Assembly: GCA_015061365.1 (NCBI GenBank)
Contig: SUWS01000032.1
Location: forward strand, 1 to 32,643
Length of the DNA: 32,643 nucleotides
Origin: Lentimicrobiaceae bacterium
GTDB lineage: Bacteria > Bacteroidota > Bacteroidia > Bacteroidales > F082
Reading direction: 5' to 3'
This document shows, one piece after another, positions 215-32,331 of the stretch. The position numbers and the translations under genes are program-made. Every line of letters starts with the position of its first letter. Position 1 is the stretch's first letter. The notes beneath the pieces are model-generated. The model saw nothing but the letters and a program-made list of their open reading frames with translations. It was not told where the DNA came from and made no database searches.

Positions 215-254
215 TTCTAAAATTCTAAAGTTCTAAAATTCTAAAGTTCTAAAA
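215..254. repeat. Octamer tandem array (TTCTAAAA/TTCTAAAG), five units
   Basis: Five consecutive 8-mers alternate strictly between TTCTAAAA and TTCTAAAG (40 bp). The reverse complement (TTTTAGAA) is the word found at 18667 and 21889. The array lies just downstream of the hairpin that terminates the minus-strand cluster and supplies part of its T-run. Confidence 0.85.
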
Positions 255-286
255 AAAAGTGCTGGCACGTTTCACAACGCGCCAGC
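251..286 (-). terminator. Rho-independent terminator of the surface-protein cluster
   Basis: 261-270 (GCTGGCACGT) and 277-286 (ACGCGCCAGC) form a GC-rich 10-bp stem with one mismatch and a 6-nt loop. Read on the minus strand, the stem is followed directly by AC and a run of eight T. It lies about 130 nt past the stop of the 79-residue gene, so it would end the minus-strand transcription unit. Confidence 0.85.
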
Positions 287-335
287 GAGAAAGTTAAATA
301 AAATTAATAATATTAAAAACTACTCCGTAGAGTCA

Positions 336-375
336 ATTTAGAACTCTGGAATTTTGGAATCTTAGAACTTTAGAA
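336..375. repeat. Octamer tandem array (nTTTAGAA), five degenerate units
   Basis: Five phase-locked 8-mers: ATTTAGAA, CTCTGGAA, TTTTGGAA, TCTTAGAA, CTTTAGAA. It has the same length (40 bp) as the array at 215-254 but the opposite orientation, so the two flank the terminator hairpin as inverted copies. Confidence 0.75.
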
Positions 376-415
376 GTTTTTCTGATTCCTTGATACCAGA
401 TTGAGATGCCAATGA

Positions 416-655
416 TCATTTCTCTTTTCTTCTGAGAGCGTAAGCCGCTCCCATACCTGCTAACAACAACAAGCCTGAACCAAGTGGTGCAGGTTGGTCA
501 CCATGTATGTTTAGTCCTGGCATTCCTGGAGTGACTGTGACACCGTTACGTTGTTGATTATCGACATCACTGTATGAGAAGAAAGCGTCGCTCTGTGCAC
601 TTGCACCTAATCCTAATGTTAATACGAGTGATATTGTTACTAAAACTTTTTTCAT
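416..655 (-). CDS. Small exported protein with a PLGSG-type C-terminal anchor
   Basis: A 79-residue protein. Residues 1-20 form a signal peptide (MKKVLVTISLVLTLGLGASAQ region). The middle is short, polar and proline-rich. The C-terminus is tripartite: PAPLGSG at about 55-61, a hydrophobic stretch LLLLAGMGAAYAL, then the basic tail RRKEK. This architecture (short motif, one hydrophobic helix, positive tail) resembles sorting signals such as LPXTG or PEP-CTERM. PLGSG tails of this form occur on small Bacteroidales proteins, but I know of no proven processing enzyme. It is the last gene of the minus-strand cluster, 95 bp after the 724-residue T9SS protein, and probably shares its transcript. The start is preceded by an A-rich leader without a Shine-Dalgarno site. 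Function unknown. Confidence 0.8.
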   Translation of the reverse strand: MKKVLVTISLVLTLGLGASAQSDAFFSYSDVDNQQRNGVTVTPGMPGLNIHGDQPAPLGSGLLLLAGMGAAYALRRKEK

Positions 656-681
656 TTTTATTCTTTTATTTTTCTGGCTTC

Positions 682-743
682 GAGCCTTGAGCCATGAGTT
701 ATGAGCGTTTCATGCTTGCCCATTGCTCATTGCCCATTGCTCA
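682..743. repeat. Two heptamer arrays (TGAGCCN and TTGCYCA words)
   Basis: 682-706 holds degenerate TGAGCCT/TGAGCCA/TGAGTTA units. 716-743 is exactly four heptamers, TTGCCCA, TTGCTCA, TTGCCCA, TTGCTCA, in strict alternation (28 bp). They fill the spacer between the 724- and 79-residue genes. The TGAGCCN word recurs at 2963-2983. Confidence 0.8.
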
Positions 744-750
744 GAGCAAT

Positions 751-2925: not shown

Positions 2926-2962
2926 TTTTTTGATTTTGATTTTTAAATTAATTTTTTTGCTG

Positions 2963-3012
2963 TGAGCCGTGAGCTATGAGCACTTCGACAAGCTCAGTGT
3001 CTGGTGCTCATA
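2963..3012. repeat. Heptamers plus hairpin around a TTCGACAAGCTCAGTG element
   Basis: 2963-2983 is three heptamers (TGAGCCG, TGAGCTA, TGAGCAC). The last part, TATGAGCAC (2975-2983), is the perfect inverse of GTGCTCATA at 3004-3012. The loop contains TTCGACAAGCTCAGTG, a short string I recall as recurrent between genes in Bacteroidota, though I could not check this. The hairpin lies between two surface-protein genes and could act in mRNA processing. Confidence 0.6.
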
Positions 3013-3029
3013 ACTCGCTACTCAAAGCA

Positions 3030-3061
3030 ATTATGAATTATGCATTATGCATTATGAATTA
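3030..3061. repeat. Heptamer array (ATTATGA/ATTATGC), four units
   Basis: Four heptamers, ATTATGA, ATTATGC, ATTATGC, ATTATGA (3030-3057), are followed by ATTAC, which runs into the stop codon of the giant gene (complement of 3059-3061). The array therefore begins exactly where the reading frame ends. Almost the same word recurs at 17406-17426. Confidence 0.8.
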
Positions 3062-6000
3062 CTTAACTACTAATCTGCAATTTTGTACATTGCCGTCGTT
3101 AGTGATTCTAATTACGTAAATACCTGCTGTTTCAAGAGCATCGATAGAATCAACATTTTGGTATTCTGCAACCTTAACGCCGAGTGCGTTGAACACCTCA
3201 ACAGTGTCGCATACAGCTTCTAAGTTGATTTCTGTACCAGTTGTTGTTGGGTTAGGATAGATATTGACTTGGCTCATTGCAGCGTCGCCAATACCTGTAG
3301 TACCGCGTGATAATACGTATGGTTCATTTACTGAACCAACCATAGCGTTGTTAGAATAGTCGATTCTGTTTACGAGATCATATTCTTCACCTGTTGTAAG
3401 GTCATAGTATTTGAATGAGACTTCTTCAACATTGTCGCCGCTGATTGTGAGGAAGAGCATATAAGCGTCTAATACTTCAACGTAGACAGGACGTGCGCTG
3501 CCGCGTACTTCGCCGTTTACTAATGCTGCCACTTCGTAGTTGTCGCCAATAGCACCGTCAACAACAGCTGTCATTGTCATGTTGAATGGATACTTGGTGT
3601 AGTCAACACTGTAGTGAGTTGCGACTTCAGTCTCATTATTACCTCTTGTTGTTGCAGGAACAATATTGTATGTGAAAGTCTTAGTTTCTCCCGATGTGTT
3701 GTTGTACATATAACCTTTTGTAGGTTTCATATTACCGTTACCAAAACTATAAGTCAACCACATACTTTGACCTTCATAATCATAGTATGAAGCAAATGCT
3801 CCTTGAGTTTTGATTTCGTCACCATGTGAAGGTTGCAATCCGTCAAGTGCATCTTCAAGTCTTACTTCAACATTAGATGGATATCCTATCCAGTTCCAGC
3901 CTGGGTTCAAAGTGATTGTGATTGTTGATGCGTCAACTAAATTGCCTGAGAGAGCTAATTCACATGCTTGTGATGTTTCAATCATATACATCTTTGATAC
4001 ATCGAATATATGTGATTCATAACCCCATCCATAATCAGTACCATCATTTACACCATAATATGTTGCGCTCCATGTTGAATTTTGAACTATTGATTTACCA
4101 TTAGTGCCGAGAGCACCTAATAAGTTTTCTGTAGTTATATTCAAATAACTTGAATACCAGTTCCAGCCTTTTACTAAGTTTTGTTTTTGTACTGGCATTA
4201 CTTCCCAGATATTTGAACCTGCTGCTGTTTCAACAGCACTGTGGCCTGGAGCGCAGAAGTTTGTATTTGCACCTTCAGCTGCGTTGTTTTCTGGATTGAA
4301 ACCGTGGAATGTACCGCCATAAACTGCTATAGTAGTAACATCGCGGGTTGCATCGTATTCGTTAAGCAAGAAGTTAGCATCATCACCTTCTTCTACTTGG
4401 AATGTACCGCCGTTGATTACAGCATGTCCGTTATTGATTACATATACTGCTTCTATATTTCCTACATAGTTACCGCCGTCGATAGTTACAGTACCATTGT
4501 CTACATACACAGCTTGTGTACCGCTTACTGTACCTTCACCGTCGATAGTTACTTCAATGCCTTCACCGTTAAAGTAAAGAGCTGTTCCGTCTACACGAGT
4601 GATGTTGAATTGACCTAAGTTAAGGTTAACAGACTTACTGATTGTAACGTATGTAGAAAGTTCTACGTTATCAAGCAATGTTACTGTTGTAACGTAAGTA
4701 TCATCATGGTTGTATTTAGCAGCTGCTGCGAAAGCTTCCTCAAGTGATACAAAACCTACTTCGTTGGTGTACCAATTTCCAGATTTATGTTGCTCATCGA
4801 CGTAAGCTACAGCGTCTTCCATTGTCCACAATTCTTCAACAGCATCATATTTGAGAGCCTTCTCTTTCTGAGCCATCACTTCAAATGGATAGTATTGATG
4901 GAGAATGTCATCGTTGAATGTACCGCCGTTGACGATGATATTCTTTGTATTCTGTCCTGAAGCGTTGAAGATCCATGGTGAGCCGTTATCTAATTCACCG
5001 ACATTTCCAAGTATGAACTTACCACCGTTGACAGTGACAGTTTCATCTTGTTGAGAATATATCATACCACGGCCATTTCCACCATTCTTGAGATTGTAAT
5101 TACCGTTTTCAATTGTCATTGTACCATCATAACAGAAAAGCAATGAATACACAGAAGAGGCTGCTTCATTTATCACTTGTCCGTGTCCGTTGAGACCATC
5201 AGTTTTTATTGTCAAGTGACCGCCATTCGCAACTGCAAAGACGTTATACATAAAGTCTGCAGCAACTGCTGTTGAGTAAAGGATGTTGTCGTTCAAGTCT
5301 ATCGTCACCGACTTGCCAGAGACTGTATACAAGGCTCTGTATGAGACACCGCCACTCACCAATATCTCAGTAGTGTTATCATTATTTACCTCTGTTACAT
5401 AAATACTCTTAATCAAATCAATTTCATCACCATCTTGTGCTGCGTCGATAGCTGCCTGGAGTGATTCGTATTGAACCTCACCTATAGCTGCTACGTAATC
5501 AGGTGCTCCGAGGTAGTATTTGCCGTCTGCGTAATATACTTTAAGACCTTCAACTGTTGTTGTAACATTATAACCTTCTGGAGCTGTGAGTGTAGCTTCA
5601 GCTGTTGTGAGAACTAACTTGCCATAAGTTGTAGTAGATACACCTAACTCTCCATCAAATGTATTTTCGCCTTCAAAGTTGAAAGTAATGATAGATGTTC
5701 CTTTCTCCCAAATATAGACAGGTTTTGTTGCAGAAATATTGCAGCCTACAAATTTAATAGTTTTAGCGGCTTGATTCTGAACCATAAGACCATGTGCACT
5801 ATTCTGTACTGTTACATTTTCTAATGTTGCACTATTAAGAGATGTGAAGTGTGCTACACCATACTCACAATTATCAACTATTGAATTTCTGACAGATACA
5901 GTATTGGTTGATTTATTGGTATGGATGAGTCCCCAGCTGTTCTTTATGTTGCAGTTATCGAATACGTAATTTCCGCCTCCACCAGTAACTTTTACAAAGT

Positions 6001-11119: not shown

Positions 11120-11560
11120 AATAAATAAATTTTAAGTGGTTAAAAAATTATTGTTAAAACTATTAAACAAGTTATTTCTGCAATTAAAATTCCTGAATGA
11201 AAATGCGTGATGCACCGAGTACATCAGTTTCTTGGCAGTTCTGATCGCTGATGAGCAATGGTAATAGAAATCCTTTCCGACAACGCCTGAATGAGACATC
11301 GCGGACAAGACTTCATTGTTAATTATGTTGTTGTTAAAATGTAGGCTGGAGGATTTGGTTTTGGCTGACGTCTGACAGCTGATAGCTGAAAACTTGAAAT
11401 TACATGAAAAAGGAGATTCGCAAATTAGAGATTCTAATTTACCCCCCCCGTAGGGCTAATTGACTGATAGTCAATATGATATGTAACATCTTATCTTTCA
11501 AGTCCTTAATTGTTTTAATAAACGTTATTTGCTATGCTTTCGTACTAATTCTTGAGCCTA
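11120..11560 (-). other. Long leader of the giant surface-protein gene
   Basis: About 440 nt between the likely promoter at 11561 and the start codon, with no credible reading frame. It holds four heptamers at 11364-11391 (GCTGACG, TCTGACA, GCTGATA, GCTGAAA), a run of eight C at 11442-11449 (G on the transcript), and a perfect hairpin ATTGACT-GAT-AGTCAAT at 11459-11475. An untranslated leader this long is atypical for this genome, where other mapped -7 elements lie about 20-75 nt from the start codon. I recognise no riboswitch class. Confidence 0.5.
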
Positions 11561-17194: not shown

Positions 17195-17353
17195 ATGTTT
17201 CAAACGATAATCGCATATATAATAATAGGTGTGGCGTTGGGATATACGATTTATTCCATCGTAAGGATATTATCACGCAAGAACGTCCCTTCATGCGGAG
17301 GCTCTTGCGAGGGATGTAGTATCAAGAAATGTTCTAAGTCAGTTAAAATCTGA
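17195..17353 (+). CDS. FeoB-associated Cys-rich membrane protein
   Basis: 52 residues, start ATG four bases after the feoB stop. One N-terminal membrane helix (IIAYIIIGVALGYTIYSIV, about 5-23) is followed by a short cytosolic tail with four cysteines at 34, 38, 41 and 46 (CGGSCEGCSIKKC). Size, helix-plus-Cys layout and position match the FeoB-associated Cys-rich family (Pfam FeoB_associated). It is presumed to help FeoB function or handle Fe2+, but its mechanism is not established. The stop codon TGA (17351-17353) lies inside the first unit of an octamer array, so the repeat abuts or has overwritten the end of the gene. Confidence 0.9.
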   Translation: MFQTIIAYIIIGVALGYTIYSIVRILSRKNVPSCGGSCEGCSIKKCSKSVKI

Positions 17354-17381
17354 GAAACTGAAAATCTGAGAAACTGAGAAA
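17350..17381. repeat. Octamer array (CTGAGAAA/CTGAAAAT), four units
   Basis: CTGAGAAA, CTGAAAAT, CTGAGAAA, CTGAGAAA, exactly 32 bp. The first unit contains the stop codon of the preceding gene. The same word occurs at 23913-23944, and its reverse complement at 18715-18746, 21957-21980 and 25540-25571. Confidence 0.85.
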
Positions 17382-17405
17382 TTAAAGAATGCTAATGTTA
17401 AATTG

Positions 17406-17426
17406 TGAATTATGAATTATGAATTA
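17406..17426. repeat. Heptamer array (TGAATTA x3) spanning a start codon
   Basis: Three identical TGAATTA units. The ATG at 17412, which opens the permease frame, is created by the junction of units one and two, so residues MNYEL are encoded by repeat sequence. Confidence 0.8.
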
Positions 17427-18662
17427 AATAACGCTCTGTTGACATTCGTAAATATGTTAAGTCAGATGGCTCCATATCTGCTGTTAGGATTTCTGATGGC
17501 GGGAGTGTTACATGTTTTCGTGCCTAAGAATTTTTTTGAGAGGTATCTTTCCAAAGAGAATTTCAAGTCTGTTTTATTGGCGGGTCTTATAGGTATTCCG
17601 CTGCCTTTGTGTTCGTGTGGTGTCATTCCGACAGCCATCTCCTTGAGGAAAGACGGTGCTTCACGCGGTGCTACGGTAGCCTTTATGATTTCCACTCCGC
17701 AAATTGGCGTCGACTCTATTATCGCGACATATTCTATGATGGGGCTGCCTTTTGCCATAGTGCGTCCGTTAGTGGCTTTGCTGACTTCGATAGCAGGCGG
17801 TGCCGTGACGACATGGTTCTCGAAAGATGAGATTGTGGTTCGACAAAACTGCGCATGCGAGAATGAAGTCAAGCCAAGAAACAGCTTCGTCGAGTTGTTA
17901 AGATACAGCTTCATCGAATTGGTACAGAACATTGGCAAATGGTTAGTGATAGGTTTGATAATAGGAACATTGATAACCGTCTTGATACCGGATTCGTTTT
18001 TCGCCGACTTGAATCTGCCTTCTATAGTGACGATGTTGATAGTCTTGGCTGTCGCCGTCCCGATGTATGTATGTTCGACGGGCAGCATCCCTATTGCGGC
18101 GGCTTTAATCATGAAAGGGTTGTCGCCTGGTGCGGCATTAGTTCTGTTGATAGCCGGACCTGGAGTAAGCGTCGCCTCTTTGTTGGTAGTAGGCAAGTCG
18201 TTAGGCAGAAAACAACTGCTGTTTTATCTTGGGTCGATAATCATAGGTTCGATAATCGGCGGGTTGTTTGTCGATTATTTGCTTCCGAGAGAATGGTTTA
18301 CGATAATGTCGTTATGTGAAGCGGGCGGACATTGCGCCATCGAAGGAAGCGCGTTGACAGCCTCATGGATAGAGATAATATCAGGAATTATTTTAGTGTT
18401 ACTTTTAATAAATGCATTTATGTTAAAATTATTTAAGAAAGAAAAAGAAGTTGCCGATAATCAAGTGATATATCGTATCGACGGAATGTCGTGCAATCAT
18501 TGCAAGAACTCTGTTGAGAAAGCCATCAGAGGATTGGAAAACGTTGAGGATGTAGAAGTCGTCTTAGGAAAGAAAGAAGCCGTTGTCACAGGCAGACCAT
18601 CTGACGATGACGTAAAGAAAGCCGTCGAGGAATTAGGATTCGACTTCAAAGGAAGAAGATGA
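17412..18662 (+). CDS. Cu/Zn-type efflux permease with C-terminal HMA domain
   Basis: 416 residues. Two homologous membrane halves of the DUF318/ArsP-like permease family: the first has LCSCGVIP (Cys67, Cys69) and STPQIGVDS (94-102); the second has VYVCSTGSIPIAAAL (219-231) and IAGPGVSV. A cytosolic loop between them carries NCACE (146-150). A soluble heavy-metal-associated domain follows at about 352-416, with GMSCNHC (CxxC at 361-364). This combination matches the SO_0444 family of Cu/Zn efflux transporters. The HMA domain would bind or deliver a soft metal. It lies 58 bp after the FeoB partner and may share the feo transcript. The upstream start lies in a heptamer repeat; the paralogue at 24949 suggests the ancestral N-terminus was close to the FxNMLSQMAPYL segment. 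Confidence 0.85.
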   Translation: MNYELNNALLTFVNMLSQMAPYLLLGFLMAGVLHVFVPKNFFERYLSKENFKSVLLAGLIGIPLPLCSCGVIPTAISLRKDGASRGATVAFMISTPQIGVDSIIATYSMMGLPFAIVRPLVALLTSIAGGAVTTWFSKDEIVVRQNCACENEVKPRNSFVELLRYSFIELVQNIGKWLVIGLIIGTLITVLIPDSFFADLNLPSIVTMLIVLAVAVPMYVCSTGSIPIAAALIMKGLSPGAALVLLIAGPGVSVASLLVVGKSLGRKQLLFYLGSIIIGSIIGGLFVDYLLPREWFTIMSLCEAGGHCAIEGSALTASWIEIISGIILVLLLINAFMLKLFKKEKEVADNQVIYRIDGMSCNHCKNSVEKAIRGLENVEDVEVVLGKKEAVVTGRPSDDDVKKAVEELGFDFKGRR

Positions 18663-18666: not shown

Positions 18667-18746
18667 TTTTAGAATTCTAGAATTCTAGAATTTTAGAATT
18701 TTAGAACTTTAGAATTCTCAGGTTTTCAGATTTTCAGTTTTTCAGA
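18667..18746. repeat. Ten phase-locked octamers, two words joined
   Basis: Six TAGAA-type units (TTTTAGAA, TTCTAGAA twice, TTTTAGAA twice, CTTTAGAA) pass without phase shift into four CAG-type units (TTCTCAGG, TTTTCAGA, TTTTCAGT, TTTTCAGA). The 80-bp block begins 5 bp after the permease stop. The same two words appear in the same order at 21889-21980. Confidence 0.9.
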
Positions 18747-18820
18747 TTTAAAAAAAACTCATAGTCTTTATCTTACAAAAAAAATAATGACAATTAGTTC
18801 AAAAGATGAAATAATTTTGC

Positions 18821-19659: not shown

Positions 19660-19709
19660 CAAATTTTTCTTTTTATATATCTTGAAGAAGAGTTATGTAA
19701 ATACAATTA

Positions 19710-19744
19710 TTAATTGTAAATTGTTAACTGTTAATTGTAAATTG
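19710..19744. repeat. Heptamer array (TTAATTG/TAAATTG/TTAACTG), five units
   Basis: TTAATTG, TAAATTG, TTAACTG, TTAATTG, TAAATTG, exactly 35 bp, lying upstream of a near-consensus -7 element TATCTTTA (19750-19757). It supplies TTG every 7 bp in the region where a -33 element would sit. Confidence 0.85.
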
Positions 19745-19783
19745 TTTCGTATCTTTACCAACCAAAATTTATTTCGATTGAGC

Positions 19784-21888: not shown

Positions 21889-22021
21889 TTTTAGAATTTT
21901 AGAATTTTAGAACTTTAGAATTTTAGAATTTTAGAAATTTTTTAGTTTTTTTTCAGTTTTTCAGATTTTCAGTTTCTCAGATTTAAAAAAATCTGTTGAC
22001 TGTTGATTGTTGACTGTTGTC
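21889..22021. repeat. Stack of octamer, octamer and heptamer arrays
   Basis: Three words in series: six TTTTAGAA/CTTTAGAA octamers (21889-21936); a T-rich gap; CAG-type octamers with CAG ending at 21956, 21964, 21972 and 21980; then exactly four heptamers TGTTGAC, TGTTGAT, TGTTGAC, TGTTGTC (21994-22021). The block begins 2 bp after the recG stop and ends 7 bp before the next promoter. Confidence 0.9.
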
Positions 22022-22028
22022 TTTTTAT

Positions 22029-23909: not shown

Positions 23910-23912
23910 AAT

Positions 23913-23944
23913 TTGAGAATCTGAAAATCTGAAAATCTGAGAAT
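23913..23944. repeat. Octamer array (CTGAAAAT/CTGAGAAT), four units
   Basis: TTGAGAAT, CTGAAAAT, CTGAAAAT, CTGAGAAT, exactly 32 bp, starting 3 bp after the helicase stop codon. Confidence 0.85.
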
Positions 23945-24091
23945 CTGTTTGACGTTGAGATGTATTCCTCAGATTTCCAGTATCGTTTTCACATATAAGA
24001 TACATAATACTTAATATTGTAAAAAACTATGTTATGAAAACAATAAAAGATTTCTAACATCGTTTTTTATGAACAAAGAAAAATAATACAA

Positions 24092-24817
24092 ATGAATCTG
24101 TTGTTGCAAAAAAACAAGAATTTTTTCCTCTATTTAGGATACGGTGTTGCAGTGTTATGTCTTGTGCGGTTGCTCGCAATGATGATAACTGCAAATGTAT
24201 GTGAGTCGATACCAGAGTCGTATAAACTGGAGTATATGACGCATGTATTGAAAGGAATACCATTTTATATAATGGAGTCATTAGTTTTTTTATGTCCTTC
24301 ATGGTTGATTTTTAAAAAGATTAAATCTATATCTAATCAATCATTGTTCTGGATAATAGCAGGTTTACATGTGTTATTTATCTCTTTAATAAACGGATTT
24401 AGAATATACAATATAGGAGAGTTATTGATTCGGATATTTCAGGTTGCTGAGATTTTGCTGTGTATAACACAGTTTGTTATATTTGTATTAATTCCATTTG
24501 GAAAATACAGGAAAGCAGGATCTGTTTTTAATCAAAGATTAAAGACATACTTACATATTTTTGGGGATTGTATAGTCTATGCGATATGTCTTGTGGTATT
24601 CTATTTTTCCGCAGTTTTAATAATATTTGCTTTATGTGATGGATTATACTTAAATTTTGATGAATATGGTGATATATATAGTGATTTAGGTCCTGCAGGA
24701 GCGTGGCTTTTCTTTTATATTGTAATTCCAATAGTATTTATTCTTAGTACTTTCGTCATGAATATGATTAAAAAAACAATTGATGATGAAATGAAAGAAC
24801 AAATGATAAATAATTGA
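24092..24817 (+). CDS. Unidentified six-helix membrane protein
   Basis: 241 residues. About six hydrophobic helices: near 11-32, 51-69, 78-97, 106-131, 147-175 and 193-220. A polar loop between helices 5 and 6 is acidic and tyrosine-rich (NFDEYGDIYSDLG), and the C-terminus is short and charged. I see no catalytic or transport signature and do not recognise the family; resemblance to small DUF2975-type membrane proteins is only in layout. Codon use is more AT-rich than in the flanking helicase gene. The stop codon (24815-24817) lies in a TTGAAAA heptamer pair (24814-24827). No clear -7 element precedes it. A real gene is likely because of consistent membrane topology across the whole frame. 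Confidence 0.7.
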   Translation: MNLLLQKNKNFFLYLGYGVAVLCLVRLLAMMITANVCESIPESYKLEYMTHVLKGIPFYIMESLVFLCPSWLIFKKIKSISNQSLFWIIAGLHVLFISLINGFRIYNIGELLIRIFQVAEILLCITQFVIFVLIPFGKYRKAGSVFNQRLKTYLHIFGDCIVYAICLVVFYFSAVLIIFALCDGLYLNFDEYGDIYSDLGPAGAWLFFYIVIPIVFILSTFVMNMIKKTIDDEMKEQMINN

Positions 24818-24867
24818 AAATTGAAAATAAATGACCAAAGACTAAAGTTTTTTTGAATTGGAAATTG

Positions 24868-24875: not shown

Positions 24876-24891
24876 CCATAAACAAAATGAC

Positions 24892-24919
24892 TGTTGTCCG
24901 TTGTTTGTTGACTATTGAC
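24892..24919. repeat. Heptamer array (TGTTGTC word), four units
   Basis: TGTTGTC, CGTTGTT, TGTTGAC, TATTGAC, exactly 28 bp. It is the same word family as 21994-22021 and, on the other strand, the array inside the aldehyde dehydrogenase gene (28170-28197). Here it would lie in the transcribed leader. Confidence 0.85.
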
Positions 24920-24946
24920 CTATAAATAACTTATAACTATTTATAG
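24920..24946 (+). promoter_or_regulatory. Perfect inverted repeat abutting the mini-permease start
   Basis: CTATAAATA (24920-24928) and TATTTATAG (24938-24946) are perfect 9-bp arms around ACTTATAAC, ending 2 nt before the ATG at 24949. It starts directly after the heptamer array. It could be an RNA hairpin limiting ribosome access or a protein-binding site. The full-length paralogue has no counterpart. Confidence 0.5.
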
Positions 24947-24948
24947 TT

Positions 24949-25485: not shown

Positions 25486-25539
25486 TTCGGCTGTTGAACT
25501 TTTCTTTATAACAAATTGTAATAACATTATTAGAAACAG

Positions 25540-25571
25540 TTTCTCAGATTCTCAGTTTTTCAGATTCTCAG
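25540..25571. repeat. Octamer array (TTTCTCAG/ATTCTCAG), four units
   Basis: TTTCTCAG, ATTCTCAG, TTTTTCAG, ATTCTCAG, exactly 32 bp, with a fifth degenerate unit (AGAAACAG) in phase just before. It lies downstream of the mini-permease. Confidence 0.85.
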
Positions 25572-25587
25572 ATTTGAATAATGTCTG

Positions 25588-25649
25588 TCCGTAATTATAT
25601 TTAAATTAATAGTTACGGATATTTAATTTTATTTTATATTGTCCGTAAC
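25588..25649. promoter_or_regulatory. Likely operator with three TCCGTAAY half-sites
   Basis: TCCGTAATTAT (25588-25598) and ATAGTTACGGA (25609-25619) form an inverted repeat with one mismatch in 11. A third half-site, GTCCGTAAC (25641-25649), overlaps the -33 TTG of the ATPase promoter. Multiple sites overlapping a promoter suggest repression, but no regulator is encoded next to it. Confidence 0.55.
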
Positions 25650-25668
25650 TCTATTTTTTTTATATTTG
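25639..25668 (+). promoter_or_regulatory. Promoter of the AAA ATPase gene
   Basis: TTG at 25639-25641, a 19-nt spacer and TATATTTG at 25661-25668 give the best complete Bacteroidota promoter in the window. The start codon is 22 nt downstream. Confidence 0.7.
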
Positions 25669-25690
25669 CGGACGAATAAAAATTTTTGAT

Positions 25691-27112
25691 ATGAATAATA
25701 ATATTGTCGGGAGAATCCAAGAATGTAATATTTTAAAGAGTTGTTATGAGTCTGACAAAGCGGAACTCGTAGCGGTTTATGGAAGAAGACGTATAGGAAA
25801 GACATTTTTGGTTAAGAACTACTTCAAGGATAAGTTCGATTTTTATATTACAGGAATTTATCAGGGGTCAAAGAAAGAACAGTTAGGATTTTTCAACAGA
25901 CAATTATGTGAATATTCAAAGATGCTTTATCCCAAAGTTGACGATTGGTTTGATGCGTTTGAACAGTTGAAGCATTACATCTCAACACTGAAAAAAGAAA
26001 AGATAGTCGTCTTTATAGATGAGTTCCCATGGTTAGATAGTCCAAAATCACGTTTCCTAAAATCTTTTGAGTTGTTTTGGAATAGTTGGGCTTCTGACAG
26101 ACCCCAGATAAAATTGATCGTATGCGGTTCTGCAACAACATGGATGATGTCGCATCTGTTAGGAGATAAAGGCGGACTTCATAATCGTGTTACAAGAAGA
26201 ATAAAACTAGCGCCATTTACGTTAGGCGAGACGGAATTGTTTTTAAAGAAACAAGGTATTGTATGGAATCGTTATCAGATTGCGGAGGCATATATGACTT
26301 TGGGAGGTACGCCATATTATCTTCAAATGCTTCAGAAGCAGTATAGTCTCGCTCAGAATATAGACCATCTTTTCTTTTCCGAAAACGCTGAACTGAGAGA
26401 TGAATATACATTTTTGTTTCGTTCTCTTTTCAATGATTCCGCAATATATCGTAATGTTGTTGAATTGTTAAGTAAAAAGGCAAAGGGAATGACTCGCGCA
26501 GAGATGATGAGCTGTTTGAAATTATCTGACGGAGGTAATTTTACTAATGTGCTTGAGAATCTGTGTAACTGTGATTTCATTCGCAGATATTCAGCTTTTG
26601 GTAAAAAAGAAAGAGATGTCTTATATCAACTTACTGACTTATATACACTTTTCTATCTGAAATTTGTAAAAGACAATAATGGCAGAGACGAACATTTCTG
26701 GACCAACATGATAGATTCTTCAGAAAGAAGAGCATGGTGCGGATATTCTTTTGAGCAGTTATGTCTTCATCATATTCCTCAGATTAAAAACAAACTTGGT
26801 ATCAGCGGAATTCAAAGTGATATATGTTCATGGAGTACGCAAGCTACAGATGAGCATAGAGGAGGACAAATCGACTTAATCATTGACAGGAAAGATCAAA
26901 TTATTAATCTATGTGAGATGAAGTTTTCTGTCAGTGAGTTTGAGATAAGCAAGAAATATGATGAAGAGATGCGAGAACGCAGAGAGTTATTTCGTAATAT
27001 TTCGAAGACAAGAAAGGCTTTACATCTCATTATGATAACGACTTACGGACTGAAACAGAACACATATTCAGGCATGATACAAAATGAAGTCGTTTTAGAT
27101 GATATGTTTTAG
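25691..27112 (+). CDS. AAA-type ATPase with C-terminal nuclease-like domain
   Basis: 473 residues. Walker A GRRRIGKT (31-38), Walker B VVFIDEFPWLD (D110, E111), a sensor-like IVCGSATTW near 148-156, then a winged-helix region. The C-terminal domain has GGQIDLIIDR and CEMKFS near 396-420, the D-(x)n-ExK pattern of the PD-(D/E)XK nuclease fold found in the archaeal-type ATPase/DUF234 family. Such ATPases are common, often solitary, in Bacteroidota and archaea; their function is poorly known, and some sit near mobile or defence genes. Here the gene stands alone, with a strong promoter and a likely operator. Confidence 0.85.
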   Translation: MNNNIVGRIQECNILKSCYESDKAELVAVYGRRRIGKTFLVKNYFKDKFDFYITGIYQGSKKEQLGFFNRQLCEYSKMLYPKVDDWFDAFEQLKHYISTLKKEKIVVFIDEFPWLDSPKSRFLKSFELFWNSWASDRPQIKLIVCGSATTWMMSHLLGDKGGLHNRVTRRIKLAPFTLGETELFLKKQGIVWNRYQIAEAYMTLGGTPYYLQMLQKQYSLAQNIDHLFFSENAELRDEYTFLFRSLFNDSAIYRNVVELLSKKAKGMTRAEMMSCLKLSDGGNFTNVLENLCNCDFIRRYSAFGKKERDVLYQLTDLYTLFYLKFVKDNNGRDEHFWTNMIDSSERRAWCGYSFEQLCLHHIPQIKNKLGISGIQSDICSWSTQATDEHRGGQIDLIIDRKDQIINLCEMKFSVSEFEISKKYDEEMRERRELFRNISKTRKALHLIMITTYGLKQNTYSGMIQNEVVLDDMF

Positions 27113-27188
27113 AAAGATGTCATATTCTAAAATTTGAACAAAGTCTGTATCCCGTTGTCTTTAGTCAGTAGTCATAAAAAAATAAATC

Positions 27189-28580
27189 ATGAATACCATC
27201 GAATCAATAAATAACATCGTCTCGCAACAAAGAGAGTTCTTTTTGACAAACGAAACCAAGTCAATCGATTTTAGATTGAAACAGCTGAAGAAGTTGAAGC
27301 AAGTCGTTGTGAAATATCAAGATGAGCTTTATGATGCTTTGTGGAAAGATCTGCATAAATGTAAGGAAGAGGCTTTCCTGACGGAAATCACGATTGTGTT
27401 AAATGAGATTAACGATCATATAAAAAATATTAAGAAATGGGCGAGACCTGAGAAGGTTAAGACTCCCGTTTATCTCATGCCGTCGAAGAGTTATGTGACG
27501 TATGAGCCTTTCGGCGTAGCATTGATTATCGCGCCTTGGAACTATCCTTTCAACCTGATGTTCACTCCTTTGGTCGGGGCAATCTCTTCTGGTTGTTGCG
27601 CTGTCTTAAAGCCTTCGCCTTATTCTCAAAACACTTCGGATGTGATGCAGAAAATGATAGACGAGACCTTCGATAAGAATTATATCACGATGGTTCAAGG
27701 TCATAGAGACGTAAATCAGGCTTTGTTGGCACAGAAGTTCGATTTCATTTTTTATACGGGAAGTCCGGATATGGGCAGAGTCGTGATGGAGGCTGCTTCT
27801 AAAAATCTCACGCCATTGGTTTTGGAACTCGGCGGCAAGAGCCCGTGCATCGTCGATAAAGACTGCAATATCGACTTCGCAGCGAGAAGAATAGTCTGGG
27901 GTAAGACGATAAACGCGGGACAGACCTGTGTCGCTCCCGATTATCTCATGGTGCATCAAGATGTTAAAGACGAATTGTTGAAAAAGATGATTTATTATGT
28001 CGAGAAATTCTATGGCGACGACATGCAGAAAAGTCATTGTTTCTGTAGGATTATCAGCGACAAAGCATATAACAGATTGGTCTCTTATCTCGATGAAGGA
28101 AAAATCATCTACGGCGGAAAATGTGACAAAGATGAAAGATATATTCAGTTTACCTTGTTGGGATTAGGTCAACAGACAACAGACAACGGACAACAGACCT
28201 CTAATGTGATGTCAACAGAAATATTCGGACCGATACTTCCTGTCATAGAATTTGACAATATTAATAAGGTATCGGAATTTATCATGAATCGTCCTAAGCC
28301 TTTGGCGTTATATTATTTCGGTGACGATGAAGGCACTGAAGATATTTTGCGGACAACGACATCAGGAGGAGTTTGTCTGAACGACACTATCTTACATGTT
28401 GCCAACGAGCATCTGCCTTTCGGCGGAGTAGGGGAGAGCGGCATGGGAAAATATCACTCCAAGGAAAGTTTTTTGGCGTTCAGCAACAAAAGAGCCGTTT
28501 TGAAATCATCAAATCGAATCGACTTCATGATGAAATATCCGCCTTACGATAAATTGGAAATGATAAAGAAGTTGATGTGA
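27189..28580 (+). CDS. NAD(P)-dependent aldehyde dehydrogenase
   Basis: 463 residues, the length of class 3-like, YwdH-type aldehyde dehydrogenases. IIAPWNYPF (113-121) and FYTGSPDMG (188-196) are cofactor-site motifs. The catalytic glutamate is in LELGGKSP (E213) and the catalytic cysteine in NAGQTCVAP (C247). EIFGPILPV is at 344-352. It oxidises aldehydes to acids; substrate unknown. Odd: residues about 325-337 (GLGQQTTDNGQQT), just before the conserved VMSTEIFGP segment, are encoded by a 28-bp intergenic-type heptamer array, making this loop about seven residues longer than usual. Loose GTCTTTA/GTCAGTA heptamers (27157-27177) precede the start, and no clear -7 element was found. Confidence 0.93.
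   Translation: MNTIESINNIVSQQREFFLTNETKSIDFRLKQLKKLKQVVVKYQDELYDALWKDLHKCKEEAFLTEITIVLNEINDHIKNIKKWARPEKVKTPVYLMPSKSYVTYEPFGVALIIAPWNYPFNLMFTPLVGAISSGCCAVLKPSPYSQNTSDVMQKMIDETFDKNYITMVQGHRDVNQALLAQKFDFIFYTGSPDMGRVVMEAASKNLTPLVLELGGKSPCIVDKDCNIDFAARRIVWGKTINAGQTCVAPDYLMVHQDVKDELLKKMIYYVEKFYGDDMQKSHCFCRIISDKAYNRLVSYLDEGKIIYGGKCDKDERYIQFTLLGLGQQTTDNGQQTSNVMSTEIFGPILPVIEFDNINKVSEFIMNRPKPLALYYFGDDEGTEDILRTTTSGGVCLNDTILHVANEHLPFGGVGESGMGKYHSKESFLAFSNKRAVLKSSNRIDFMMKYPPYDKLEMIKKLM
28170..28197. repeat. Heptamer array inside a coding sequence, four units
   Basis: CAACAGA, CAACAGA, CAACGGA, CAACAGA, exactly 28 bp: the reverse complement of the TGTTGTC word found between genes at 21994-22021 and 24892-24919. 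28 is not a multiple of three, yet the frame stays open, so the array must have arrived with a compensating change. Confidence 0.9.
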
Positions 28581-28616
28581 GAAGATGACAGTTGTTAATA
28601 ATCTTTTAATAATAAA

Positions 28617-28646
28617 ATCAGCCGCCACTGTAATCTGACGGCTGAT
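28617..28646. terminator. Bidirectional terminator between convergent genes
   Basis: ATCAGCCG (28617-28624) and CGGCTGAT (28639-28646) form a perfect 8-bp stem between the aldehyde dehydrogenase (plus) and flavodoxin (minus) stop codons. A/T-rich tracts lie on both sides, so it could serve both transcripts. Confidence 0.7.
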
Positions 28647-28658
28647 AATTTAAAACTA

Positions 28659-29201
28659 TTATTTCTTAACTTCCTCGATCCACGACTTCAGTTGTTCTTC
28701 CGTAGCTCCGTTGAGCAGTTTCGCTTCAACCCAGTCGATTTCAGGATACGCGGCTTTGAACTCTTTGAGAGCCTTTTCGGGAGTGCTGCCACCTGATGTC
28801 GCAAACATCACGACTTTCTTTCCTTCAAATCCGTATTCTTCAACAAACGAATTTATAATGGTAGGAGCGGTGTACCACCAAATTGGGAAACCGATGTAGA
28901 TGACGTCATAGTCATCGTGGTTTTTCAAGTCTTTGATGAAAGCAGGACGGAAGGAGCGGTCGTTCATCTCAACGCTGCTCCGTGAAGTCTTGTCTGTCCA
29001 GTCAAGGTCGGCTTGCGAATAAGGCACTTCAGGTCTGATTTCAAAAATGTCGGCACCTGTGATGTCGGCAATCTGTTTCGCTACGGCTTCGGTGTTGCCC
29101 GTGGCGGAAAAATAAGTCACTAACGTTTTCATGTTCTTGTCATTTTGAGCGCAGCTTGTTAATGTTGTTAATATCACTGCAAAGATTAATGTTCTTTTCA
29201 T
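28659..29201 (-). CDS. Lipoprotein flavodoxin
   Basis: 180 residues. The N-terminus MKRTLIFAVILTTLTSC is a lipoprotein signal with lipobox LTSC (Cys17). The flavodoxin domain begins at about 25; the FMN-phosphate loop is SATGNT (32-37), and later parts include YIGFPIWWYTAP and FATSGGS, both typical of short flavodoxins. It is predicted to be a membrane-anchored FMN electron carrier facing the periplasm. I chose ATG at 29201 and not the frame opening at 29294 because it gives the lipoprotein signal and because a consensus -7 element lies between the two. An alternative cytosolic start is the Met at residue 24. Confidence 0.88.
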   Translation of the reverse strand: MKRTLIFAVILTTLTSCAQNDKNMKTLVTYFSATGNTEAVAKQIADITGADIFEIRPEVPYSQADLDWTDKTSRSSVEMNDRSFRPAFIKDLKNHDDYDVIYIGFPIWWYTAPTIINSFVEEYGFEGKKVVMFATSGGSTPEKALKEFKAAYPEIDWVEAKLLNGATEEQLKSWIEEVKK

Positions 29202-29238
29202 AAAACAAAAGTGTTTAATAAATTCTTCATTGAAAGTA

Positions 29239-29246
29239 CAAATATA
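29239..29246 (-). promoter_or_regulatory. -7 element of the flavodoxin gene
   Basis: CAAATATA on the plus strand reads TATATTTG on the minus strand, a full match to TAnnTTTG, 38 nt upstream of the chosen start codon. Confidence 0.6.
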
Positions 29247-29361
29247 ATTTTTTATTGTTTTAGATAAAAAAACTAATCGATTATTTCTCCACACTCCACA
29301 TTTTCCCTCCTCATTTTCTCAAAAATAACCAGAAAAAATTTGTTATATAAATGTTTATCTG

Positions 29362-29369
29362 TATATTTG
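29362..29369 (+). promoter_or_regulatory. -7 element of the trkH-trkA operon
   Basis: TATATTTG, 30 nt before the ATG at 29400. It lies inside the longer possible frame opening at 29340, which argues for the shorter TrkH. Confidence 0.6.
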
Positions 29370-29399
29370 AGCCCAAAAATTTTACCATTTAAAAGCTCA

Positions 29400-31220
29400 A
29401 TGAAAAATAACATCTTAGATAATATCATAACACAAACGTTGAAGAATAGAATCTCCTTCTGGTATAAGTTGATAATATTCCTTATTTCTGCTCTCAACAT
29501 AGCGGCTTGCGTGATAGACTACGGCTTCGTGCTTAACGACAAGGAACAGAATGTAATCTTCAATATTTACAATATCGCGTGGTGGTGCTATTTCATTACG
29601 TTTTTCGTCCGCATTGTCTTTCAGTGGAAAATGATAAATCGTAAGACAATATCACTCACGACAATTACCGGCTTACTTTTGTTGTTCTCTGCATTACCTA
29701 AGTTCATTCCAATAACAGAAGCGAGTGCTCTTTATAATATATGGCAGTTTTTCAGTAACAAACATTTCATCATATTGACATTACTTCTCTTCGCGGCTTT
29801 AGAAGTGTCGAGCGGTATTATCAATTTCATAAATAAAAAGACCAATCCAGCTTTGCTGATGACAGTCTGCTTCGCAATCATAATATTATTCGGCGCCTTG
29901 TTACTTCTGCTTCCGCGTTCTACTAAAGAACATATCGTGCTTCCTGTTGCAGATGCCATCTTCATATCCACTAGTGCGGTCTGCGTTACAGGACTTTCCA
30001 CAGTCGATATTGCCCAGACATTCACCTACGAAGGACAAATTGTCATCGCGCTTCTCATACAGATTGGAGGTCTCGGCATCATGACGATAACAAGTTTCTT
30101 CGCCATCTTCTTTATGGGTGGCACAGGACTCTTCAACCAATTTGCTCTACGCGACATGATCGGCAGCGAGACATTCAGCTCTCTCATCTCTACCTTATTA
30201 TATATATTAGGTTTCACTTTCATCATCGAAGCCATCGGAGCATTTTTTATATGGCTCAGCATACATGGCACCATGAACATGAATCTGCATCAAGAGATTT
30301 TCTTCTCCATCTTCCACTCCATATCTGCTTTCTGTAACGCAGGCTTCTCCACCTTGAGTGGCAACCTCGGTAATCCGACCATAATGTATAACCATAATGC
30401 CTTCTATATCATTATATCAACCTTGATAGTACTCGGCGGCTTAGGTTTTCCTATCTTAATGAATTTTAAGAAAATGCTTTCGTATAAGTCAGGAAAGTTT
30501 TTCGACAAGATTTTCAAAAGAAAGAAACAGAGACCGTTCTACTCGCATATCGCTAATATCAATACGAAGATTGTTCTGAGTATGACAGCAATCTTAATCG
30601 TAGTGGGAACCATAATCATCGCTATCAGCGAATGGAACAGAGCATTTGCTGGTATGCCGTTTTTTGATAAGATCGTACAGTCTCTTTTCAATGCCATAGC
30701 TCCAAGGACAGCAGGATTTAACAGCATCGACTTGACTCAGTTCTCGTTGATAACGATAATATTCTACTCGTTTCTGATGTGGATAGGCGGAGGCTCGCAA
30801 TCGACAGCTGGCGGTATAAAAGTAAACACCTTCGCAGTGGCAATGGGGAATTTCTTCTCTGTGATAAAAGGTCAGAAAGACGTACGTCTCTTTAACAGAG
30901 AGATAGAAAGCGACTCCATCCGCCGAGCCTCAGCCGTAATATTCGGTTCTATGCTCACAATATTGATTTTCTTCATAGGTCTCGTGATAATGGAACCCAA
31001 TATATCAGCGAAAGGTCTGCTGTTCGAGACAATTTCAGCATTTAGTACCGTAGGTTCAAGTCTCAACGTAACTCCACTACTATCAGACGGCAGCAAGATA
31101 TGGGTCACGATACTTATGTTCATAGGTAGAGTCGGCTTGATAACAGTGTTAATGAGTTTCATAAAACATTCAGAGACGCCTAAATACAGATTACCGAAAG
31201 ATAATGTAATAATAAATTAA
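29400..31220 (+). CDS. trkH: Trk-type potassium uptake channel subunit
   Basis: 606 residues, the usual length in Bacteroidota. An extra N-terminal membrane region (about 1-130) precedes the four M1-P-M2 repeats. The pore loops, each with the filter glycine, are SAVCVTGLST near 190, SAFCNAGFST near 310, APRTAGFNS near 434 and SAFSTVGSS near 545. It forms the K+ pathway in the inner membrane, gated by the TrkA/KtrA ring. The trkA-like gene follows after 8 bp. I chose ATG 29400 from the promoter position and because the upstream codons look non-conserved. Confidence 0.93.
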   Translation: MKNNILDNIITQTLKNRISFWYKLIIFLISALNIAACVIDYGFVLNDKEQNVIFNIYNIAWWCYFITFFVRIVFQWKMINRKTISLTTITGLLLLFSALPKFIPITEASALYNIWQFFSNKHFIILTLLLFAALEVSSGIINFINKKTNPALLMTVCFAIIILFGALLLLLPRSTKEHIVLPVADAIFISTSAVCVTGLSTVDIAQTFTYEGQIVIALLIQIGGLGIMTITSFFAIFFMGGTGLFNQFALRDMIGSETFSSLISTLLYILGFTFIIEAIGAFFIWLSIHGTMNMNLHQEIFFSIFHSISAFCNAGFSTLSGNLGNPTIMYNHNAFYIIISTLIVLGGLGFPILMNFKKMLSYKSGKFFDKIFKRKKQRPFYSHIANINTKIVLSMTAILIVVGTIIIAISEWNRAFAGMPFFDKIVQSLFNAIAPRTAGFNSIDLTQFSLITIIFYSFLMWIGGGSQSTAGGIKVNTFAVAMGNFFSVIKGQKDVRLFNREIESDSIRRASAVIFGSMLTILIFFIGLVIMEPNISAKGLLFETISAFSTVGSSLNVTPLLSDGSKIWVTILMFIGRVGLITVLMSFIKHSETPKYRLPKDNVIIN

Positions 31221-31228
31221 GATTATAT

Positions 31229-31645
31229 ATGAAATATTTAATAATAGGACTTGGAAATTTCGGCAAGACATTAGCCGAAGATCTTACCGATAACGGCAAT
31301 GAAGTTATTGGTATCGACAACGATGAGCGTAAGATAGAAGATGTAAAGGACAGGATTTCACTTTCTTATATCATGGATGCAACAGAAGTAAGTGCTTTGA
31401 GATCGTTGCCATTAGATGAGATCGACTGCGCCATAGTAGCAATCGGGCAGAGTATGGAACATTCGCTGAGGACTGTAGCAGCCTTGAAAGAATTGTCGGT
31501 TAAGAATATATACGCCCGTGCTATAGACAATACGCATAGATCTATTTTGAAGGCGATGAGCATCAAGAAGATCTTTATTCCTGAGAGCTATGCCGCACGA
31601 TTGTTCTCGAGAATGCTCAGCGATGAAAACAGCGTGATGGAATAA
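31229..31645 (+). CDS. trkA: TrkA-like regulator, RCK_N domain only (truncated)
   Basis: 138 residues. The Rossmann RCK_N domain is complete: GLGNFG (7-12), acidic ribose-binding residue in GIDND (D30), and AIVAIGQ. The frame ends just after the PESYAARLFSRML linker, at SVME. TrkA/KtrA proteins are normally about 220-230 residues, with a following RCK_C domain. None of the three plus frames after the stop encodes RCK_C, and the downstream DNA is repeat sequence from 31657 onward. The nucleotide-binding half could still form a ring with TrkH, but RCK_C-dependent regulation would be lost. It probably shares the trkH promoter. Confidence 0.85.
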   Translation: MKYLIIGLGNFGKTLAEDLTDNGNEVIGIDNDERKIEDVKDRISLSYIMDATEVSALRSLPLDEIDCAIVAIGQSMEHSLRTVAALKELSVKNIYARAIDNTHRSILKAMSIKKIFIPESYAARLFSRMLSDENSVME

Positions 31646-31656
31646 GTCTCATCTAT

Positions 31657-31698
31657 ATTAATTAAGGTGTAAAGGTAATAAAGGTTTTAAAGGTAATA
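31657..31698. repeat. Left copy of a flanking direct repeat
   Basis: Begins ATTAATTAAGGTGTAAAGG and continues with AAAGGTTTTAAAGGTAATA. A similar string lies at 32262-32305 (ATTAATTAATAAGGTGTAAAG, GAAGGTTTAAAGTTAATA). The pair brackets the non-coding block that holds the 173-bp direct repeats and the GC-rich segment. Confidence 0.6.
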
Positions 31699-31755
31699 CT
31701 TATAACTTTTAAAGGGACTTCTATAAATTGCTTTACATGTGATTTATGAATTTTT

Positions 31756-32034
31756 CTTTGAGAATCTTTTGTCTTTCTCAAAAGAGCAAAGCAAGCTAAG
31801 TGAATGAAACATGTAAACTTTCAAACTTAATAACTTTCAACTTTAAAACTACTCTAAACTATCAACTCTAAACTATAAACTTTAAGGGGATTTCTATAAA
31901 TTACTTTGCGAGTGGTCAATGTTTTTAACTTTGAGAATCTTTTGTCTTTCTCAAAAGAGCAAAGCAAGCTAAGTGAATGAAACATGTAAACTTTCAAACT
32001 TAATAACTTTCAACTTTAAAACTACTCTAAACTA
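31756..32034. repeat. Tandem direct repeat, two copies, 173-bp period
   Basis: About 106 bp at 31756-31861 recur essentially unchanged at 31929-32034. Each copy starts with a hairpin (CTTTGAGA facing TCTCAAAAG), then GAGCAAAGCAAGCTAAGTG, then AACTTTC-type heptamers. The preceding CTATAAATTnCTTT boxes (31721 and 31894) are also shared. Each copy ends in CTCTAAA/CTATAAA heptamers (31852-31886 and 32025-32059). No reading frame of substance. Either a duplicated non-coding element or a relic of a mobile one. Confidence 0.75.
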
Positions 32035-32061
32035 TAAACCTTCAACTCTAAACTTTATAAT

Positions 32062-32261
32062 GAGGGCGTTCCGGCTATGCCGTCGGGCTTTCCGCTGTAT
32101 CTTCGCTCGCTATGTATCCGTCCCGCCACTAATCCCTTCTCACAATCTTCGTTTCCGTTCCCGCTTTGAAAACCCTGCTGGCTCGCGAAGGATGCCGCTT
32201 CAATCCCTAACGCGTGGAGGCTGCTGTCATAAAGGGCGCTACCCGGAACATCCGCGCCGCT
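32062..32261. repeat. GC-rich palindromic segment in an AT-rich spacer
   Basis: About 200 bp, sharply richer in GC than its surroundings. It begins GGGCGTTCCGG and contains CGGGCTTTCCGCTGTATCTTCGC-like sequence facing GCGAAGGATGCCGC (32196-32209), then ATCCCTAACGC. CTTCGC/GCGAAG and ATC/GAT pair to form a long-range hairpin. I recall similar GGGCGTT...CCCTAACGC segments as dispersed repeats in Bacteroidota, but have no name for them and could not search. A 97-codon frame crosses it but looks accidental. Confidence 0.55.
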
Positions 32262-32331
32262 ATTAATTAATAAGGTGTAAAGTTATAGAAGGTTTAAAGT
32301 TAATAGTTGATGGTTGATAGTTGATAGTTGA
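32262..32331. repeat. Right flanking repeat plus four heptamers
   Basis: 32262-32305 is the right copy of the direct repeat described at 31657. It runs into exactly four heptamers, TAGTTGA, TGGTTGA, TAGTTGA, TAGTTGA (32304-32331, 28 bp). Confidence 0.7.

Follow-up and report, generated by a model that had tools for sequence, protein, structure and literature searches.

The stretch of DNA analysed here (the window) comprises 32,643 nucleotides and corresponds to contig SUWS01000032.1 (C88) of the 2.94 Mb draft genome of a Lentimicrobiaceae bacterium, order Bacteroidales (GCA_015061365.1, designated G000). Between its genes, and in places within them, it carries short arrays of tandem 7- or 8-base units, and the arrays of this genome and its congeners are described here with regard to unit number, unit order, distribution and possible origin. 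Arrays were detected with Tandem Repeats Finder and with our own scan in the window, in a first sample of G000 of 327,627 bp (including 42.8 kb called intergenic), in an enlarged sample of 727,627 bp (about 728 kb) and in samples of congeners, among them G027, G009, G023 and G034. Open reading frames (ORFs) were called by a simple length rule, and the place classes assigned to the arrays are therefore approximate.

Eighteen arrays were found in the window at a score of 10 or more, in agreement with the at least 17 counted in the original prediction, which had been made from the letters of this DNA. When the units were recounted from the starts given there, with up to two mismatches per unit, 11 of its 12 unit numbers were right (four units at 716, 3030, 11364, 17350, 21994, 23913, 24892, 25540 and 28170, five at 215 and 336), and the array at 32304 had five units. 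Its description of the arrays as exactly 28 bp long is better replaced by four units plus a partial unit, about 31–36 bp.

The arrays are on the + strand unless otherwise indicated. At the left end of the window lie two octamer arrays of five units, one of TTTTAGAA/CTTTAGAA (212..254, - strand) and one degenerate, of the TTTTAGAA type (336..375), followed by four strictly alternating TTGC(Y)CA heptamers (716..743), a weak array of three GCTGTGA units (2959..2981) and four (M)ATTATG units plus five bases (3029..3061). The stop codon of the - strand gene 3059-11119 comes from the right end of the last of these, an AATTATG array; the product, a beta-helix protein of 2686 aa, matches a secretion tail only weakly, at a score under the curated cut-off. 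Four degenerate GCTGA(Y)A heptamers occupy 11364..11391. Near the ArsP/HMA permease gene (17412-18662), four octamers CTGAGAAA of the AATCTGAR type (17350..17381) and four AATTATG heptamers with up to two mismatches (17401..17428), which overlap the called start at 17412, are found on one side; on the other, six TT(Y)TAGAA octamers (18667..18714) begin 4 bp past the stop at 18662, with four units of TCAGATTT directly behind them (18718..18749). The permease gene has a second, shorter copy at 24949-25485, in which about 690 bp are absent at 25281 with respect to a copy in G027. Six AATTGTA/AATTGTT heptamers (19705..19746) lie at the uncertain 5' end of a RecG-like ORF. Six TTTTAGAA octamers (21889..21940), 2 bp past the stop at 21886, are followed by four units of TTTTTCAG (21949..21980) and by four (Y)GTTG(W)C heptamers (21994..22021), behind which stands TTATCTTTG, in our view similar to the Bacteroidetes -7 promoter box. 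Further to the right are four AATCTGA(R) octamers plus a partial unit directly after the stop at 23909 (23910..23947), a short TTGAAAA array (24812..24828) inside which the gene ending at 24817 stops, four decayed (Y)GTTG(W)C units (24892..24919) and again four AATCTGA(R) units plus a partial one (25537..25574, - strand). In the aldehyde dehydrogenase gene (27189-28580), an in-frame (Y)GTTG(W)C array (28170..28198, - strand) encodes QQTTDNGQQT. Heptamers of the AACTATA type (31857..31885) and five TAGTTGA units with up to two mismatches (32297..32331) complete the set. The arrays had been assigned to spacers, but those at 28170 and 19712 are inside called ORFs (for the latter, the ORF start at 19682 is an uncertain TTG). 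"Nearly every spacer" was too broad a statement, as arrays occur in 7 of the 14 window spacers between called ORFs and in 118 of 440 in the 728-kb sample.

Period 7 (27.2 arrays per 100 kb) and period 8 (7.1 per 100 kb) dominated the enlarged sample, in which all other periods from 4 to 13 reached at most 1.1 per 100 kb. The 42.8 kb of intergenic sequence contained 64 period-7 and 24 period-8 arrays, compared with 0.2 and 0.0 in an order-3 Markov control (mean of five), and 0 to 2 arrays of each other period between 2 and 13. The called coding part of the first sample held 24 and 4 arrays, against 1 and 0 in one simulation, and the window, at score 12, held 7 and 8, against means of 0.00 and 0.02 in 50 order-3 Markov simulations. 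These Markov controls rule out a chance origin. Comparison of six sources with Rfam at gathering scores assigned no family to the arrays; the only matches were two tRNAs and two Flavo-1 RNAs. The Flavo-1 RNAs (RF01705; L047:16405-16496 and L050:6620-6696) are flanked by heptamer and octamer arrays.

Overlapping hits of (YGTTGWC)x3 numbered 308 in G000, 149 in G027, 29 in G009 and zero in the other 57 of 60 genomes; the reversed pattern gave 15, 15 and 3 hits, respectively, and 12 in G057. Period-7 arrays of other words were present in most of the congeners sampled, although unevenly (37 in 272,727 bp from 14 congeners, two of them with none of period 7 or 8). Six order-mates of other families (11–20 kb each, 111,283 bp) yielded no period-7 array and one of period 8. 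The vocabularies are species-specific within the genus. AATTAGG is common in G027 and G009 and falls outside the 25 commonest words of G000; G009 has the additional octamers AACAAGAC and AAGACTAC; AAAACGG, AAAGTGG and AATGCGG are words of G023, and ACTCCTC and ACCTCTC of G034. At score 12 the samples contained 55 (G000), 45 (G027), 26 (G009), 13 (G023) and 14 (G034) distinct consensus words, many of them mutual variants, and 33, 15, 8, 9 and 8, respectively, were seen at least twice. Outside the genus, the 21-mer (TGTTGAC)3 was found in at least 104 stretches of GTDB, in a search from which records close to the genome of the window were possibly excluded; among the matches listed, 73 of 80 were titled cyanobacteria, and the other seven Bacteroidales, Paludibacteraceae, Dysgonomonas, Thiotrichaceae, Caldilineales, Chloroflexi and Woesearchaeota.

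Gene order varies much within the genus: the genes of window 12100-32000 have different surroundings in G027 and in G009, collinearity between the G000 and G027 samples is broken in 15 of 36 adjacent alignment pairs (partly due to piece or contig ends), and the neighbours of the DbpA locus differ between G000 and its relatives, without synteny. Two longer repeats also occur in the window. About two tandem copies of a 173-bp sequence with AAGGGGACTTCTATAAATT-like ends occupy 31701-32057; since pieces of this region recur at about 30 positions in G009, many of them no more than about 200 bp from the end of a contig, it is probably a repeat similar to miniature inverted-repeat transposable elements, and it often adjoins ACTATAA or TTTAAGG arrays. 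Three tandem 48-bp copies are located at 11991-12136, and their relatives elsewhere in G000 carry a palindrome-like insert with TTTTCAA arrays of varying length.

Unit number was determined from a seed of two perfect adjacent units, which was extended at its edges with no more than one mismatch allowed in each unit. The word (Y)GTTG(W)C had two, three, four and five units in 7, 8, 55 and 4 arrays of G000 and in 8, 5, 26 and 2 arrays of G027 (four in 26 of 41), and three and four units in two and six of the eight arrays of G009. In G000, the four-unit peak was clear for this word, for (M)ATTATG (12 of 21 arrays) and for TTTAA(R)G (15 of 22), while AATCTGA(R) and TTGAAA(R) had about equal peaks at two and four units (13 and 12 of 33; 12 and 11 of 37). 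The excess of four over three units (one-sided P) was 4.9e-10 in G000 (55:8) and 9.6e-5 in G027 for (Y)GTTG(W)C, and in G000 0.0065 for (M)ATTATG, 0.0012 for TTTAA(R)G and 0.018 for AATCTGA(R); it was not significant for TTTAARG in G027 (6 vs 5), TTGAAAR (0.059), AATTRAC (0.19) and AAAGYTC (0.77). Slippage alone had been expected to give random copy numbers, without an internal peak; YGTTGWC, MATTATG, TTTAARG and AATCTGAR depart from this in G000. The predicted quantisation of array length therefore holds for the main words, but two octamer arrays of the window have six units (18667-18714 and 21889-21936), and AATT(R)AC (up to 15 units), AAAG(Y)TC (up to 12) and TT(Y)TAGAA are broad in unit number. 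The edges of the four-unit arrays were reproducible: GWC(YGTTGWC)4 with a C preceding the array in 99% of 81 cases, (MATTATG)4MATTA in 12 cases and TTTRG(TTTAARG)4T in 21. Among congeners with other words, period-7 arrays spanned 29–35 bp in 19 of 40 cases in G023 and 16 of 30 in G034; the classes of 22–28 bp (10 of 26) and 29–35 bp (8 of 26) were about equal in G009.

The order of unit variants was then compared with independence. The 81 four-unit (Y)GTTG(W)C arrays of G000 and G027 comprised 54 variant orders, where independent columns gave 58 (range 49–65); they therefore do not derive by copying from a small number of masters, and the wholesale copying of one master element is ruled out. 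The last unit carried A at W in 67 of the 81, and C-C neighbours at Y numbered 8 against 23.8 expected. When units were permuted within each array, identical neighbours were fewer than expected for (Y)GTTG(W)C (28 of 243 vs 44.0, P 0.0005), TTTAARG (13 vs 20.1, P 0.0045) and MATTATG (11 vs 14.9, P 0.046), and no different for AATCTGAR and TTGAAAR. Over all period-7 words, neither an excess nor a clear lack of identical neighbours was detected in G000 (177 of 634 vs 187.7), G027, G023 and G034. By contrast, 73 cyanobacterial loci chosen for TGTTGAC x3 showed a strong excess (619 of 1232 vs 482). Selection for three identical units is rejected as its cause, for the excess stays when the selecting word is removed (359 of 749 vs 294; none of 1000 permutations reached it). 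As identical neighbours are not in excess and the orders are close to independent, the main pattern of the genus fits neither slippage, which is expected to give such an excess, nor the copying of master arrays, which would give repeated orders.

With respect to genes, the 250 arrays of G000 comprised 184 intergenic, 15 at ORF 3' edges, 15 near uncertain ORF starts and 36 inside ORFs. Spacers held 3.91 arrays per kb when convergent, 2.93 when tandem and 1.01 when divergent; (Y)GTTG(W)C deviates from this trend, with 7 divergent against 2 convergent arrays in G000 (3 vs 3 in G027). Arrays were enriched at gene 3' ends: of the 189 facing one in G000, 88 overlap the stop or begin no more than 12 bp away from it (61.5 expected from uniform placing), as do 29 of 87 in G027 (21.5 expected), and the stop codon lies inside the array in 39 and 14 of them, respectively. 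Arrays facing a gene start were within 12 bp of it in 26 of 161 cases in G000. In tandem spacers, stop codons were present in more frames on the sense than on the antisense strand in 66 arrays of G000 and in fewer in 31; in G027 the figures were 22 and 5. Inside ORFs, (Y)GTTG(W)C runs in its stop-free direction (23 of 24 in G000, 8 of 11 in G027). We take the supply of gene stop codons as a consequence of where arrays are tolerated and not as their purpose.

Sites inside genes could be compared between species. The aldehyde dehydrogenase array of the window is at a loop near residue 328. In G027, one copy of this gene has an array of another unit order in the loop (QQSTDNRQQS) and a second copy, 93% identical in DNA over 2.1 kb, has a palindromic sequence in its place; in G009 the loop has neither. 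Palindromic GTAGAGAC...-like elements, of a form resembling repetitive extragenic palindromic (REP) sequences, lie in frame in coding regions at L083 (G027), opposite window 28170, and in sorting-domain genes in L047 and L240. Paralogous genes of G000 have an array that encodes the loop STDNGQQTTV of a domain which, from motifs such as YPNP, we presume to be a type IX sorting domain; one paralogue encodes the same loop with a different word (SAVSYQLSAV), and a domain of this kind in G009 carries an array in a different loop. In a long ORF of contig C38 (L037), G000 and G027 agree in the word at one site, where G009 has a different one. At a second site (L037:9030), TCTGTTG/TCCGTTG units in G000 correspond to GCTGTTA/GCTATTA units in G027, between flanks 92.6% identical. 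From these comparisons within genes, array sites can persist while their words change. Orthologous sites may also be array-free or shorter, as at L048:14705-14780 (74 bp, against 10 bp in G027) and L244:11959-12082 (122 against 20 bp).

Heptamer direct repeats are already known from Cyanobacteria, Beggiatoaceae, Xanthomonas and a few Bacteroidetes, and the four-unit rule, the octamers and the word turnover appear to be new here. The cyanobacterial heptanucleotide repeats, named short tandemly repeated repetitive (STRR) sequences, were reportedly described by Mazel in 1990. The resemblance in form put forward in the original prediction applies to unit length, to the presence of several words per genome at many loci and to one common word, TGTTGAC, and does not extend to copy number and unit order: the 73 cyanobacterial loci vary broadly in array length and have identical neighbours in excess, in contrast to the four-unit peak and the missing excess in four of five species here. 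Octamers are rare in those loci (2.8 vs 43.1 per 100 kb). Period 7 in G009 and the broad words AATTRAC and AAAGYTC are exceptions to this contrast in copy number and neighbours. Beyond TGTTGAC the overlap in vocabulary is weak: 11 of 66 words were shared with the cyanobacterial loci (5.0 expected, P 0.0045); for words seen at least twice the overlap was 2 (1.3 expected, P 0.38). Paludibacter propionicigenes is a member of the Bacteroidales. The claim that no equivalent had been described in this order cannot be maintained, since direct repeats of TAACTGA are reported by MacGregor 2015 (PMC4679880) from marine Beggiatoaceae, from Cyanobacteria and from five Bacteroidetes including P. propionicigenes, with other heptamer repeats beside them. 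In that system a single word dominates, mostly in forward orientation and, in BOGUAY, mostly just upstream of start codons, and binding by a cold-shock-like protein was suggested (PMC4679880); the genus studied here has at least a dozen words per species, uses octamers and places its arrays mostly at 3' ends, and TAACTGA was the word of none of the 422 period-7 arrays in the genus samples. A literature search, sparse on subscription papers, retrieved nothing else on such arrays in Bacteroidales and no earlier report of the four-unit rule.

REP sequences of the GTAG/CGTC kind (PMC3733652) are similar in size (20–40 bp), in dispersal, in their location mostly between tandem or convergent genes and in their occasional presence inside genes. 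However, they are palindromes, many of them tied to a tyrosine transposase, whereas aligned four-unit arrays with their flanks proved to be direct repeats without a GTAG or CGTC tag palindrome. The tandem repeats of Borgs (PMC9879509) are likewise numerous, independent, fast-evolving and located in spacers and ORFs, but with perfect units whose lengths within ORFs are divisible by three; here the units are of 7 or 8 bases and imperfect, and yet occur in ORFs. The heptamers GGGAATC of Xanthomonas and GGGGA(C/T)T of Nostoc form intergenic arrays over-represented in the genus and have been discussed as quadruplex-forming (PMC4692102); they differ in being one G-rich word, of a length and sequence that vary among close relatives.

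We tentatively propose, with a rough probability of 0.45, that the arrays are very small dispersed elements copied in trans by a length-limited process. An element would consist of about 31–36 bp, with four tandem 7- or 8-base units and a partial unit, in a dozen or more words per species. A process acting in trans, by copying or insertion, would restrict its product to about 30 bp and deposit it at new sites, most of them close to the 3' ends of genes and some, in frame, in protein loops; the copying step, and not later selection, would set the length, and words would turn over jointly in all units of an array. This proposal is supported by the restriction to periods 7 and 8 with a four-unit peak, by the presence of one word at many unrelated loci in near-independent variant orders, by the lack of an identical-neighbour excess (except for period 7 in G009), and by the array-free or shorter orthologous sites and the exchange of words at sites within genes.

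Several results weigh against this proposal. The broad words are not quantised, period 7 in G009 bears the signature of slippage (identical neighbours 28 of 67 vs 19.0, P 0.001), and in the period-7 arrays of G000 identity between units at a distance of three (first and fourth) exceeds expectation (95 of 260 vs 76.6, P 0.003), which the proposal does not explain. Only 37 of 398 arrays could be placed in another species, of which 22 had no array, 11 another word and 4 the same word; several of the 11 were placed via dispersed repeats, and a decayed array is still present at some of the 22, so that we relied on the sites within ORFs inspected by eye. No target-site duplication was seen at orthologous sites, where the DNA is only about 76% identical and the roughly 24% divergence blurs the array boundaries. 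As for the machinery, Y1 transposase gave one match each in G000 and G009 and none in the array-bearing G027 (91% complete) and G001 (89%); RVT_1 gave one match each in the array-rich G000, G001, G009 and G023 (G024–G035 were outside that search) and none in the array-bearing G011 (100% complete) and G015 (99%). Presence does not follow the arrays, and a requirement for either enzyme is unsupported. Reiterative DNA writing, telomerase-like in form but dispersed, in which a 7- or 8-base template would be copied about four times to a product of about 30 bases that is then placed in the chromosome, is distinctly improbable as the specific process. It would explain the two unit lengths and the near-constant product length, the joint change of word in all units at L037:9030, the variant orders without master copies, and the G009 octamer TTGTTGTC, which resembles the heptamer TGTTGTC with an extra base in each unit.

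Among other explanations, the arrays may be binding sites, each word being the four-site target of a DNA- or RNA-binding protein (e.g., cold-shock-like) and changing together with it, and the degenerate letters being positions free to vary. The constant number of units, the set positions of the degenerate letters and the nearly random order of variants are expected of a functional motif, and selection for a four-site motif could equally give a fixed number and a random order. Some (Y)GTTG(W)C arrays lie just upstream of TTTTTATTATCTTTGC, and both the preference of this word for divergent spacers in G000 and the arrays close to gene starts point in the same direction. In tandem spacers several words have a strand bias with respect to transcription (TTGAAAR 16:0, AATTRAC 10:1, AATCTGAR 10:2, and YGTTGWC 13:1 in G027 and, not significantly, 19:9 in G000); however, the bias tracks the strand that bears stop codons, and MATTATG (7:7) and TTTAARG (9:9), with stops on both strands as judged from the words themselves, are unbiased in G000. 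We consider this explanation unlikely, because arrays also occur inside genes, because their overall density is low in divergent spacers and because each of the dozen or more words would need a reader.

Somewhat more doubtful is an origin as microsatellites, in which chance seeds would expand and contract by replication slippage and period 7 would correspond to the stretch held by the polymerase, an idea of Mrazek 2007 as reported by citing papers. According to MacGregor 2015 (PMC4679880), heptamers formed the largest class in the majority of the genomes examined there. The breadth of some words and the neighbour excess in G009 agree with slippage, as does an AAAATTG array whose length varies between copies of a palindrome-bearing repeat in G000. 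It does not account for the four-unit peak, for the same word at many unrelated loci or for the four species without the excess that the cyanobacterial arrays have even without their selecting word. Hairpin or terminator elements, of the kind of REPs and bacterial interspersed mosaic elements with arrays as arms, are very improbable in general. In several spacers an array does face its own inverse across a short loop (e.g., L047:9293-9379 and L050:8512-8608), and arrays are enriched downstream of genes, as REPs are (PMC3733652). Nevertheless, neighbouring same-period arrays up to 120 bp apart formed 10 related inverted, 8 related direct and 36 unrelated pairs, so that hairpins are not general and a general hairpin function is unsupported, and the Y1 transposase, of the REP-associated tyrosine transposase type, was not found in G027 and G001.

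For the heptamer arrays of bacteria, slippage, regulation or transfer have been offered as guesses. This genus provides a cleaner case, in which array length is near-fixed for several words, the signature of slippage is mostly absent, vocabularies differ between species and some sites can be compared across them, which makes slippage, selection and copying separable. If copying in trans is the true explanation, bacteria possess an undiscovered process by which short repeats are written into DNA and the ends of genes and the loops of proteins are remodelled.

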